A stretch of 64,000 nucleotides of DNA from Anadara kagoshimensis (Eukaryota > Mollusca > Bivalvia > Arcoida > Arcidae), in assembly GCA_021292105.1 (NCBI GenBank), contig CM037869.1, forward strand, positions 36,949,155-37,013,154, in the 5' to 3' direction. The notes beneath the pieces were generated by a model. The model saw only the letters and a program-made list of their open reading frames with translations, searched no databases and was not told the DNA's origin. Shown here one piece after another: positions 32,881 to 39,513 of the stretch. The position numbers and the translations under genes are program-made. The stretch's first letter is position 1; every line of letters begins with the position of its first letter.

Positions 32881-33116
32881 GGTACCTAGAAAATAAGCCC
32901 AGGGAACAAACTAAGCCCAGGGACATTTCACGCGCCCAGGAAGTTGTTGGGCACTGTAGAGATGTGAAAATTACATATATATCATAAATCATACTATATT
33001 TTATCATGTATAAATATTATAACGATCTATGCAAAAATAATGAAGTTATTGACCATTGTTTATTTCTCCATCGCCGTACACGATACGGAGTAAGGGAGAT
33101 AACTCGAACTGATACT
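32881..33116 (+). repeat. Left terminal inverted repeat of the 6.6-kb element
   Basis: Begins GGTACCTAGAAAATAAGCCC. The inner end is GAGATAACTCGAACTGATAC. It is the inverse of 39,278-39,513 with only scattered differences. Confidence 0.85.
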
Positions 33117-33429
33117 TTAAGACTTTCCTGGTGCTAATCCATATAATCAACAAATAATGAACTATTAATGAACTATTGATAAATTAATAAGATATTTCAA
33201 CCGATCGCGTCTTAAGTGTTTTTGTGGAATGGTGGATTGATAAAATATAAATTTATTATAGACTTACCGATAATATACATAACATGCGTTCGGACAACTA
33301 TGGAATGAATATTTTCCATAGTTGCGCCACCCCAAGGAGACTTCTGGCAGAGAAAATTATTATGTAACATTAAAGTACCTTTCTTAAATAAAAAATTTTA
33401 CAAAAAAAATTTAAAAAATTTTTGGCTAG
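33117..33429. other. AT-rich interior of the 6.6-kb element
   Basis: Contains one palindrome, CTATGGAATGAATATTTTCCATAG-like, near 33,298-33,322. Nothing else recognised. Confidence 0.4.
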
Positions 33430-33459
33430 TTTTTGAGATATTTGATGTTTTTTGTAAAA

Positions 33460-33835
33460 TTCCAATTGGAATTCCAATTGGAAAAACTAAAAATTCCAAT
33501 TGGAATTAATTCCAACAAAATTGTTTTTGGAAAAAAATTCCAAAAGACTGACTTTCTTTGGAAAAATATTCCAATTGGAAAAAAAATTCCAAAATTCATC
33601 CATTTTGGGAAAAAAATTCCAAAAAACACTACTTTTTCCAAAAAAAAAATCATAAATTGGAAAAAAATCCAAAATAACAATATTTGGAAAAAAATTCCAA
33701 TAACATTCAATTTTGGAAAAAAATTCCAACAACATTCAGTTTTGGAAAAAAATTCCAATAACACTCAATTTTGGAAAAAAAATCCAATAACATTCAATTT
33801 TGGAAAAAATTCCAATAACATTCAATATTTGGTTT
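33460..33835. repeat. Palindromic simple repeat, TTGGAAAAAAATTCCAA units
   Basis: About 14 units in which each TTGGAAAA(A) is followed by its complement TTCCAA, with short spacers such as TAACATTCAA. The left end is denser (AATTCCAATTGGAATTCC). Because every unit is self-complementary, both strands show similar accidental open frames. Confidence 0.85.
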
Positions 33836-34330
33836 AAACTGGCTTGGATATATCATATTTCTACATAATTATGTAATAATGAAATAATAAAAAAATTGTT
33901 AAAATCATTTAAAAATAAACATTTTGAATGAAATAAATATAATCAGTTATGAAAACATGCCTTTGTGTTTTATACAATTTCTCCACAACTACTGGGGTAA
34001 TTTCACTTCTATTATGATTTTTGTAAAACCCAATATTGGTGCTTCAAAATATAACAAAAAGTGAAATTCTCGAAATTTTTGACCTAAGGGCCCTTTTTGC
34101 ATGTGGATGGTCATATTGGAAATATAACATATTTTACACATTCTGACCAAAAATTAACTCCATCAGTCTAGTAAATAAAATTAATGCCAGGACGGTGGAG
34201 TACCTGATTATTTTCAGAATTTTCTGAATCTTTTAGGCATTATCATAGATGTAAAAAAAAATGGCCAACTAACAATACAGTGTCAATACACAACTTTCAA
34301 CACCTTTTAGTGTTCACATTGAGACACTGA

Positions 34331-34425
34331 CTTAGGCGTAGGAGGGTTTTTAATATTAGGGGGGGGGGCAAACCGAAGCTATGTCTATGTCGTGCCGCAG
34401 GCACGAGGGGGGGAGGGTATGAGAG
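34331..34425. mobile_element. Short hAT-like end fragment
   Basis: TTAGGCGTAGGAGGG at 34,331, followed by a G-run and GTGCCGCAGGCACGAGGGGG, resembles the terminal and subterminal structure of the hAT elements at 26,155 and 39,704. Confidence 0.35.
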
Positions 34426-34435
34426 AATTATAGTC

Positions 34436-34790
34436 ATTTCGTACCATGACCATTTCGTACCATGTCCATTTTGTACCATACACTCAAGCCATTTTACCAT
34501 ATATTACCACTACATTGCTACCATTTCGTACCACATTAAAGTGAAGTGTTACCAATTCCTACAATAAATTTTGTTAAAGTCTCCCTCTCTGTCTCAACAT
34601 AATATGAAAACTGAATAAGATGAACATCTTAAAAAAAGCTTGGACTTTATTTTATAAATATAGTACAAAATGGCAGATTTTGAATACATTATTTTAATAA
34701 AAATTTGCTAGCCATTTCGTACCATAGAAATGGACAATTTGGGTACGAAATGGTTACGGTACGAATTGTTCATATAGCATGGTACGAAAT
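34436..34790. repeat. Element built of CATTTCGTACCAT boxes
   Basis: CCATTTCGTACCAT or close variants recur (34,436, 34,450, 34,463, 34,521 and 34,711), with inverse boxes GGTACGAAATGG and ATGGTACGAAATCG at 34,742-34,790. It replaces the 3' end of the NADAR-SGNH-OTU gene. Confidence 0.6.
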
Positions 34791-37353: not shown

Positions 37354-37613
37354 ATCTCAACTAAGTTCTTAATATCCCCTACCATTGCTGCCGGATCCCT
37401 TGTCTTTGAAATGTCATTTCCACCTATTTGAAGAAAGACTACATCTGGCTTAAAACTTAACATCTCGTCCACTAATTCACTAGGCACACAACTAGCTCTC
37501 ATACCGCCTTTAAAAAAGCGTTTGACCACACTAGGGACTTTAAAGTCACCCGCACACCAATTGTACACGCGCTTGATAACTAGATCCAAATACACAAATT
37601 TTAAGTCTTGACG
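37323..37613 (-). pseudogene. SGNH hydrolase domain (partial)
   Basis: LKICVFGSSY (about 37,605-37,576) is a block-I nucleophile motif. After a one-base shift, KRVYNWCAGDFKVPSVVKRF and KPDVVFLQIGGNDIS (block III GGND at about 37,413-37,424) follow. The region ends at LVEICKASGC, and the block-V Asp-His part is not seen, so a deletion is likely before the OTU part. SGNH enzymes are esterases, lipases or deacetylases. The substrate is unknown here. Confidence 0.65.
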
Positions 37614-37967
37614 TTGATCTGTCCCTCACATCCATCAATAATCTGCCGAATCGATTTTGTCCATAACCACACGATGTACCCCAGAAGTCGTCCTTAACGT
37701 TGTGCAAAAGATTATAATTATTCGTTGTCTCTAAATACTGTCTAAATATCGGAACTTGGCGATGTTATTCTTCAATGAGATTGTTCATAAGTTTCAATTT
37801 GTACGCTGACCATTCTGACGAACTATGAATTGCTTTCGAAATGCTCTTAGCTTCAAACGCATCTGCTGAGTAAAAGATCCTGTGGGCAAGGTCGTATTCG
37901 TAATGGAAATTGGCTTTCTTAAACTGATAAGCATGTTCAACACTTTTGAAATTTATACCATCATAAT
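37595..37967 (-). pseudogene. NADAR domain (YbiA-like N-glycosidase fold), one internal stop
   Basis: DYDGINFKSVEHAYQFKKA opens exon 2. AHRIFYSADAFEAKSISKAI follows, then the stop TAA at 37,767, then LLHNVKDDFWGTS and GQNRFGRLLMDV. Together with exon 1 these are all the characteristic NADAR boxes (LSNFY, F.S.EHAYQ, A.FEAK..GK, DDFWG, G.NRFGRLLM). The family acts on NAD/ADP-ribose-related N-glycosidic bonds; bacterial YbiA and NADAR proteins that reverse DNA ADP-ribosylation are examples. Except for the one stop codon the frame is open through to the SGNH region. Confidence 0.75.
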
Positions 37968-38019
37968 CTAAAAAATCAAAAAAAAATCAACAAAATCACT
38001 ACAAACTAATTAATAATAA

Positions 38020-38365
38020 TTTATCGATATAAGTGATAATGAAATAACGATCATAATGAAATAGTGAAATTCTACCCGCCCCTTTCTGATCACCGATGAA
38101 ATAACGATATAAGTGAAATTCTACCAGTTTTTTCTGAACACCGATGAAATAACGATATATTAAGTGAAATTCTACAAGTCTTTTTCTGAACACCGATGAA
38201 ATAACGATATAAGTGAAATTCTACCCGCTAACCCGTCTCTTTCTGAACACCGATGATAATAATTTATCGATATAATTGATAATGAAATAACGATATAAGT
38301 AATAATGAAATAACGATATAAGTAATAATGAAATAACGATATATGTGATGATCAAAATAACGATC
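38020..38365. repeat. Minisatellite in the NADAR gene intron
   Basis: Units of about 65 bp with CACCGATGAAATAACGATAT and AAGTGAAATTCTACCCGC, then a shorter 25-bp form, GTAATAATGAAATAACGATA. It lies entirely within the intron 38,559-37,968. Confidence 0.8.
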
Positions 38366-38559
38366 TACTGACCAGTACACCGGAATCATTTTTAAATTAA
38401 CAGCTCGTTTCTTATCCCTTTGTATTAAATGTCGCTTTAAAAATATAAGTGATAAGAAAATATCGCTATAAGTAAAAATCTACCCGCCTCATTCCTAATG
38501 CTGTATTCTGTTGTTAAATCAAGACTAATTAATAAAAGTAAATAAATAAATAAACTTAC

Positions 38560-38632
38560 CAATATCACAGTTGTAGAAGTTGGATAAAACAGTACCAGGG
38601 CCTTTAAAGTGTAGATTTTTCTCGTTTGTCAT
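38560..38632 (-). CDS. Exon 1 of the NADAR gene
   Basis: ATG at 38,632, MTNEKNLHFKGPGTVLSNFY then NCDI plus one base, with the donor GTAAGT at 38,559-38,554. LSNFY is the hallmark N-terminal strand of NADAR domains. Splicing to 37,967 gives CDIDYDGINFKSVEHAYQ, the expected continuation. Confidence 0.75.
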
Positions 38633-39277
38633 TGTATTAAATTTCAGTAGACTTCAGTGTATTCTAATATTTTTAACAGTATGATGACAGTCACTGACTC
38701 CAAGTTTATATATAACCTGGTTTTAACAGTGTTCACTAATTTGACAGATTGGCTTACACTGTTCATCTTTCTCGGAGATACAGCGGCTTGCAGTATTCAC
38801 GATGATGACAGTTATTACAATTGTAGTAGTACTCTTAATTACTTAAGCGTGTCAGGTACAATAGGTGATTTAGTGATCACGGTCATCAGAGTATCCACGC
38901 GACGTTAATCCGATAATTACCAGACTGCTAATAATCTTAATTACTGTGATGTCACACTGCTGGGAGGAATTTTGCACATGCGAAAAAGGGTTTGATGATC
39001 AATTTCAACATCATCATTATTATTAAAACCTGTATATTATTATTATAATTATTCTAATAATTATTATTTTAAAAACTTTATTTTTAAAAAAAATACTTTA
39101 TCACAGATAAGTAGTAAGAAATACATTAAATTTAATTTATTACATTATTCTATTATTTCTATAATGTATTCTCTTAAATAGCTTCCATATTTTGTAAATG
39201 TGATAATTAAACGTAATCTTAAATAAACAATCAGTACATGCATCTAATCTAATATTATAAATTGTATTATATGTAAC
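38633..39277. other. 5' region of the NADAR gene inside the element
   Basis: 645 bp between the start codon and the right TIR. It should contain the promoter. No clear TATA box at the right distance and no other gene were seen. Confidence 0.35.
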
Positions 39278-39513
39278 AGTATCAGTTCGAGTTATCTCCC
39301 TTACTCCGTATCGTGTACGGCGATGGAGAAATAAACAATGGTCAATAACTTCATTATTTTTGCATAGATCGTTATAAAATTTATACATGATAAAATATAG
39401 TATGATTTATGATATATATGTAATTTTCACATCTCTACAGTGCCCCACAACTTCCTGGGCGCGAGAAACGTCCCTGGGCTTAGTTTGTTCCCTGGGCTTA
39501 TTTTCTAGGTACC
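39278..39513 (-). repeat. Right terminal inverted repeat of the 6.6-kb element
   Basis: Read inward on the - strand it begins GGTACCTAGAAAATAAGCCC and ends CTCGAACTGATACT, matching the left repeat over 236 bp. Confidence 0.85.

Follow-up and report, generated by a model that had tools for sequence, protein, structure and literature searches.

The closest described relatives of the element reported here are the MuDR-type Mutator elements, or Mutator-like elements (MULEs), which generate target duplications of 8 to 11 bp, usually 9 bp, and which in maize carry the accessory gene mudrB. The element occupies positions 32880 to 39514 (6635 bp) of a 64,000-nucleotide stretch of the genome of the bivalve Anadara kagoshimensis (contig CM037869.1; here called the window) and ends in terminal inverted repeats (TIRs) with GGTACC tips. 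It has in common with MuDR-type elements the long TIRs, the 9-bp target duplication and, in sister copies elsewhere in the genome, a MULE DDE transposase whose modeled fold best matches that of ISCth4. It differs from them in that the transposase of the family has N-terminal PHD and OTU domains and in that the second gene encodes a NADAR-SGNH protein, unlike mudrB. We read the window copy as a decayed, nonautonomous member of a two-gene MULE family with GGTACC tips, with a probability of about 0.93 for this statement, which includes no role for NADAR.

Modules of these kinds have been described next to other transposases. Proteases that remove ubiquitin or SUMO, and PHD modules, are joined to the transposase, as here, in animal and plant Mutators with Ulp1 and in Ginger1 elements with OTU, Ulp1 and PHD (PMC2836005). 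In Ginger1 they lie C-terminal to the transposase, whereas the PHD-OTU part of the present family is N-terminal and belongs to a MULE; the passages of PMC2836005 on Ginger1 and Mutators mention neither NADAR nor SGNH. NADAR domains are recorded in an Ectocarpus Gypsy element and in open reading frame 1 (ORF1) of an oyster Tx1 element (PMC12477816), but these are retrotransposons, whereas the elements examined here are cut-and-paste DNA transposons. In the DarT1-NADAR toxin-antitoxin system, NADAR has E and K at the presumed catalytic positions, like the domain described below, and erases ADP-ribose from guanine (PMC11543638); unlike that system, Pfam scans of the element's frames detected no transferase domain. 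A full-text literature search, with Repbase and most subscription journals outside its scope, gave no title on NADAR in a MULE among the papers listed and no paper pairing Vertnin with a MULE transposase, and no word starting with "transpos" occurs in the main text of PMC11125620 or PMC9503650.

A two-gene family of TIR elements

An earlier note on this DNA, made from the letters alone, had proposed a genome search with the TIR. The repeat does occur elsewhere: a 240-bp end used as a query gave at least 43 matches (40 of 166 candidates scored). Sixteen stretches were fetched, from which 10 two-ended elements, including the window copy, were kept; left out were L009 (a twin of the window copy, described below), L014 and L015 (one element on C18 with an unclean left tip), L019 (one tip missing) and L020, L021 and L022 (a single end found). 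Exact 9-bp target duplications flanked 8 of the 10 copies, with matches of 8/9 in L018 and 7/9 in the window, so that the anticipated duplications of 7 to 9 bp were found at the other copies as well. The paired stretch of the arms that aligned was shorter, at 32 to 82 bp, in 6 of the 10. In each of the six copies of known gene orientation (window, L010, L011, L012, L013 and L016), the 5' tip reads CGGTACC and the 3' tip GGGTACC. One element end of L012 is interrupted.

Gene content of the 10 copies was measured by tblastn as coverage of six modules: NADAR, SGNH, PHD with the start of OTU, the end of OTU with the linker, the pre-core region and the DDE core. All six were present at 91 to 100% in L012 and L013, with several frames broken. 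L010 was without the PHD/OTU start, L011 had DDE only (71%), and L016 had the PHD/OTU start, half of the OTU end and linker, and 45% of DDE. No module was detected in L017, L018, L023 or L024, gene-less copies of 274 to 3311 bp. The window copy retained every module except DDE, with 45% of SGNH and 58% of the PHD/OTU start. Genes thus lie inside TIRs at other loci; this, the further TIR matches and the empty sites described below resolve the refuting conditions of the same note in its favor. A further, one-sided stretch, L025, has the same gene order; a search for matching long arms was negative in L025, L026, L027 and L028, stretches that may stop short of the element ends. In L010, L013 and L025, NADAR-SGNH is a 313-amino-acid frame that follows an intron and has its own stop, and an OTU-MULE gene, with PHD included in L025, lies downstream on the same strand. 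These comparisons showed that fuller family members have two genes, a NADAR-SGNH gene with one intron and a gene for a PHD-OTU-MULE transposase.

In the window copy no known transposase had been recognized, and a C-terminal domain of no known type had been put forward as the possible driver of transposition. Three protein matches to this domain were obtained among 252 candidates. P0001 (E = 1e-17) and P0003 (E = 6.6e-8; "MULE transposase domain protein" of Mytilus edulis) run on into a MULE domain (16.0 and 21.8 bits, both below the Pfam cutoff of 27.6), and P0002 (E = 1.6e-14) has PHD and OTU domains over their cutoffs (OTU, 25.7 bits) and stops before the core. By these alignments, the domain is the region just before the MULE core. 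Its proposed tie to transposition was upheld, while the idea that it is itself an RNase H-like core was not; likewise, the window copy does lack a core, but its superfamily is recognizable from the sister copies.

An 814-amino-acid frame of L010 lies within the TIRs, shows acidic motifs and scored 23.6 bits for MULE, below the cutoff of 27.6. It had 10 protein matches, of which the best was P0004, a Pinctada imbricata record named "Vertnin," at 45% over 99% of the L010 transposase, OTU part included; P0003 has the pre-core part and the MULE domain in common with L010. Both differ from the family in being known as single protein records. The MULE cutoff was passed by P0004, P0006 and P0010, and the OTU cutoff (23.3) by P0008 (23.7) and P0009 (24.9), with OTU matches below it in P0004, P0005 and P0012; P0005 and P0009 begin with a PHD-like finger, below the Pfam cutoff. 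P0004, P0005, P0008, P0009 and P0012, all of which aligned with most of L010, combine OTU and transposase in one protein; the OTU-MULE joining therefore also occurs outside this genome. A fold check against RNase H-like transposases, also proposed in the earlier note, was run on the L010 frame. The AlphaFold2 model had a mean predicted local distance difference test value of 68.9 and a predicted template modeling (TM) score of 0.44, and its best solved match in Foldseek was the ISCth4 transposase, which ranked above Hermes, integrases and RAG. The TM scores were low (0.14 to 0.33) owing to the large size and loose packing of the model, and the fold evidence is general, since many RNase H-like enzymes rank next. 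Taken together, the ranking, the Pfam matches and the duplication length indicated that the element almost certainly belongs to the MULE superfamily.

Ends, target site and decay of the window copy

The arms at 32881 to 33116 and 39278 to 39513 are identical at 232 of 236 positions (98.3%), in agreement with the 236-bp repeats seen in the initial reading. The limits given there were one base short on each side, because sister copies show that single extra bases at 32880 and 39514 also belong to the element. The flanking repeat, AGTTTGGAA on the left and AGTTTGGGG on the right, matches at 7/9 as had been observed, and random 9-mer pairs from the window match at 7/9 or better at a frequency of 0.0026. 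An 11-bp target duplication (8/11) was considered and dropped, as the sister copies give 9 bp plus one element base per side.

Removal of the element and one 9-bp copy in silico restored an open frame running into a GT donor, and hence the continuity of exon and donor described previously was confirmed. A query in which the flanks were joined across the removed element, a single 9-bp copy being kept, gave three end-to-end genome matches at 93%; these are empty sites, whose existence had been in question. Each contains TTCCAAACT once, which is the left copy read on the opposite strand, and keeps the GT donor; in one (L045), an additional upstream base would shift the frame. Because these sites match the left copy, the two changes in the flanking repeat sit in the right copy. 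The empty sites are paralogous, not allelic, and the insertion host is a repeated sequence adjoining a hAT-like gene. Transposase frames of hAT type, with DUF4371 and Dimer_Tnp_hAT, occur at window positions 26500 to 28720.

The segment is a true insertion, as originally argued, and the chance that it is an assembly artefact, either a false inverted duplication or a chimera, is close to nil given the target duplication, the empty sites and the fact that members of this TIR family inserted independently elsewhere. Such an artefact could draw on the finding that the compared pieces of the neighborhood recur identically on C3 and that the C13 piece stops at a gap of 1000 N, but this duplicated region concerns the neighborhood and not the ends of the element. 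Over the element itself, C3:27107933-27114565 shows 0 mismatches in 6633 positions. The comparison covered window positions 1 to 943 and 32279 to 40500, and the flanks also matched, at 32279 to 40113 (with one 2-bp gap), 1 to 943 and 40114 to 40500. The window has 1000 N at 40501 to 41500, where the C3 sequence continues, and the 1-kb C3 piece expected opposite window positions 62947 to 63946 gave no match. The C3 region that repeats pieces of the window up to this gap is C3:27106946-27147342. We interpret the C3 twin as either a duplicated contig of the assembly or the product of a very recent duplication; it was therefore counted once, not as a second insertion.

Comparison with sister copies accounted for the gene structure of the window copy (Table 1). 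The pieces of the previously described NADAR-SGNH-OTU gene are all present, with an apparently sound exon 1 and intron. They do not, however, form one spliced gene, in view of the stop in exon 2, the frame shifts and a deletion junction. This junction (W 2177/2180) spans positions 4146 to 5585 of L025. The single gene is the scar of this deletion, because the end of SGNH and the start of PHD were lost and two genes now abut. The GNGNC and NHF motifs of OTU could be read by eye. The coding match to the transposase ends five residues past HGNAK, beyond which lies the unrelated sequence. With a stop, frame shifts, a deletion and an insert, the window copy is without an intact transposase of its own, and because the DDE core is absent it is nonautonomous, one of the two options originally offered.

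The NADAR-SGNH-OTU pieces are also not the only recognizable gene content, as had been stated, since a reverse-transcriptase fragment was overlooked. This fragment is absent from L010 and scored 20.2 bits for RVT_1 (Pfam cutoff, 29.6); a search for solved structural relatives gave no convincing match (best E, 0.32), and by its motifs it may be Penelope-like. Many pieces like the 3' part of the insert, on both strands and 66 to 96% identical, occur at window positions 45145 to 63615, which we read as a nest of truncated retroelements.

Table 1. Features of the element, its target site and the host sequence (window positions unless a contig is given)
Feature	Position	Strand	Basis
TIR at 3' end of genes, tip GGGTACC	32880..33116	+	Self-comparison of window and sister copies
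TIR at 5' end of genes, tip CGGTACC, 98.3% to other arm	39278..39514	-	Self-comparison and sister copies
Left target-site copy AGTTTGGAA, the single target at three empty paralogous sites	32871..32879	.	Site comparison
Right target-site copy AGTTTGGGG, 7/9 versus left	39515..39523	.	Site comparison
NADAR-SGNH exon 1, ATG to GT donor	38560..38632	-	Read by eye
Intron with simple repeats, GT...AG	37968..38559	-	Read by eye
Exon 2, NADAR (PF08719, 59.5 bits; cutoff, 35.1); in-frame TAA at 37765-37767	37588..37967	-	Pfam and reading
SGNH/GDSL remnant, truncated, shifted frame, without Asp-His half	37338..37625	-	Pfam and sister comparison
Deletion junction; ~1.4 kb of L025 (SGNH end, spacer, PHD finger) absent	37335..37338	.	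Comparison with L025
OTU part of transposase gene, frame shift near 36985	36695..37334	-	Pfam and comparison
Truncated reverse-transcriptase insert in OTU/linker coding region, 6-bp TTTGTA repeat at ends	~35735..36694	-	Pfam and comparison
Linker and pre-core region, matching L010 814-amino-acid frame up to residue 412	34792..35734	-	Comparison
~1.5 kb of unrelated repeat-rich sequence replacing MULE catalytic core	33281..34791	.	Comparison
Element 3' end, 98.5% to L010	32880..33280	-	Comparison
Host exon, distal piece, ending at GT donor (32840-32844)	32845..32870	-	Sequence and empty sites
Host exon, proximal piece; multicopy sequence beside hAT-like gene	39524..39702	-	Sequence and empty sites
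Empty paralogous sites	C13:3587448-3587718; C8:46802515-46802785; C8:44844617-44844888		Joined-flank search

NADAR beside MULE transposases in four architectures

NADAR and MULE places in the genome were compared by using lists that are samples (150 of 378, 150 of 341, 55 of 305 and 150 of 152 candidates scored), with rows of one locus merged by hand, giving 165 NADAR and 109 MULE places. Fourteen of the 165 NADAR places had a MULE place no more than 8 kb away, compared to a mean of 0.35 and a maximum of 4 when MULEs were placed at random (n = 2000). Eight of these 14 belong to the family of the window copy, the twin counted. At C13:1566360 (L040), PHD, OTU, the pre-core region and NADAR-SGNH downstream were found, with most of the core missing. 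At C15:37622385 (L041), a MULE core (35.5 bits) is followed downstream by NADAR (85.4 bits) and SGNH (37.6 bits), all over their cutoffs, and the same order was seen at C3:58869448 and C3:59321185, judged from coordinates alone. A long open frame in the stretch C5:3148500-3154500 (L028, at C5:3149489) contains both NADAR (70.6 bits) and MULE (32.3 bits) over their cutoffs; a frame with Ulp1 and PHD comes next. For the remaining place, C3:13742897, proximity was likewise judged from coordinates alone. The pairing of NADAR with MULE transposases, by proximity or by fusion, thus recurs in four architectures.

NADAR scored 62.9 bits in L010 and 63.2 bits in L025, and the presumed catalytic positions were E in 9 of 9 and K in 8 of 9 aligned sequences. 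The SGNH domains of L010 and L025 keep GSS, GGND and DxVH-type motifs and scored 30.4 bits, below the GDSL cutoff of 32.9, which was passed by L029 (36.8), L040 (45.3) and L041 and not by L027 (31.5). The OTU domain of L040 scored 29.4 bits (cutoff, 23.3). Twelve loci with NADAR were inspected (window, L010, L012, L013, L025 to L029 and L040 to L042), and nine of them have MULE sequence; L029 lies in a multicopy repeat, and L027 showed neither. In the twelfth, L042 (C11:8402000-8406600), a long frame has NADAR close to its start and also a weak match to DUF6589 (17.9 versus 27 bits), and Ser replaces the presumed catalytic Lys. The L029 repeat has an open 335-amino-acid NADAR-SGNH frame and 125-bp inverted arms at C17, and the core of the arm recurs without mismatch at two C9 places and one C16 place (L029 with L033; L034, L036 and L038). 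We do not claim these arms as element ends, nor L029 as a MULE, as two copies share sequence beyond the arms.

Possible roles of NADAR and competing explanations

In the proposed mechanism, a MULE transposase supplied by a fuller copy would bind the 236-bp ends, probably through the region before its core, and would cut and insert with a 9-bp stagger; such a transposase could have moved the window copy or a less damaged ancestor. Less surely, NADAR might strip ADP-ribose from DNA, or from another target, that otherwise hinders excision, integration or repair, and OTU might take ubiquitin off the transposase or repair proteins, so that the extra enzymes would sustain transposition against host modification. 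NADAR proteins, including one from a eukaryote, erase ADP-ribose from guanine in DNA (PMC11543638 and PMC11125620), and guanine-directed DNA ADP-ribosylation has been reported from six edible clams (PMC11209040), with the responsible enzyme, CARP-1, cloned from one of them. The authors of PMC11543638 state that experiments have yet to confirm that NADAR removes the CARP-1 mark. Viruses also carry NADAR, among them annelid and bivalve picornaviruses (PMC9503650). We consider it possible, and tentatively favor, that NADAR erases ADP-ribose that hinders the element and so would protect the DNA of the element or its transposition intermediates. The wider proposal, that NADAR-MULEs counter a genome-defense mark of guanine-ADP-ribose laid down by the host, with OTU countering ubiquitin, as an animal counterpart of the NADAR antitoxins of DarT, is speculative and unlikely.

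A cassette without a role in transposition, drifting along as a passenger like a retrotransposon ORF1, is at least as likely as a protective role and is a serious contender. NADAR in retrotransposon ORF1s, as cited above, would suit this explanation, as would the esterase and PHD carried by ORF1s of long interspersed nuclear elements (PMC4120745) and the cassettes seen without a MULE (L027 and L029), which are 46 to 47% identical to that of L010, compared to 49% for L040. Open frames, the retention of the presumed catalytic positions and the presence of four MULE architectures, one of them a single-frame fusion with the transposase, argue for a function instead. Activity of NADAR-SGNH in RNA or riboflavin/NAD metabolism, as proposed for viral NADARs, rather than in erasing a DNA mark, is less probable: YbiA of Escherichia coli works on riboflavin intermediates (PMC11543638) and is the closest solved structure by sequence (2b3w), but guanosine-ADP-ribose activity was present in all of the NADAR/YbiA proteins tested in PMC11125620. 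Chance capture of host pieces (NADAR, SGNH and OTU) by a nonautonomous Pack-MULE would fit the window copy taken alone, which has MULE ends, gene pieces and no transposase core. The same modules in the same order accompany a transposase in the sister copies L012, L013 and L025, and the joining of OTU to the transposase in the five proteins named above largely refutes such capture for OTU, making a Pack-MULE very improbable overall.

Several observations weigh against the interpretation of the window copy as a decayed two-gene MULE and of NADAR as its partner. In the window, GDSL/SGNH (27.8 bits; cutoff, 32.9) and OTU (13.6 bits; cutoff, 23.3) are below the Pfam cutoffs, and coverage of the DDE core was 0% by tblastn, which excludes self-movement. 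Ratios of nonsynonymous to synonymous change in the transposase parts of the compared copies were 0.58, 0.63 and 1.24 on 10 to 17 changes, with no clear constraint. Copies within one family are not independent, and the count of 14 is thus better read as four architectures; 151 of the 165 sampled NADAR places are more than 8 kb from any listed MULE, and NADAR is therefore not MULE-specific here. The ends of the L040 and L041 elements were not located, so that the assignment of NADAR and MULE to one element depends on their order; in the case of L041 it draws on three copies, of which two are known by coordinates only. A protein search with NADAR-SGNH (313 amino acids, without exon 1) gave seven matches, scallop proteins included, which covered 54 to 60% of the query and were listed with SGNH only, and no NADAR-SGNH protein from another species. 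A weak search for a host writer of guanine-ADP-ribose with PF22596 (Scabin-like) gave 0 matches to the genome, and its 14 controls were silent too.

The notable point is the family itself and the repeated pairing of NADAR with MULEs, which hints at an arms race in which DNA modification is contested. If NADAR helps transposition, transposon control would become a testable reason for guanine-ADP-ribosylation in clams. For annotation, the locus suggests that sister copies should be inspected before a TIR element is filed as being without a transposase.

Elsewhere in the window, Rfam at the gathering score gave one tRNA-like match and no ribozyme. A 587-amino-acid open frame at positions 22621 to 24384 had no convincing Pfam match; with its motif DPMHIFLEGI, it presumably represents a transposase.

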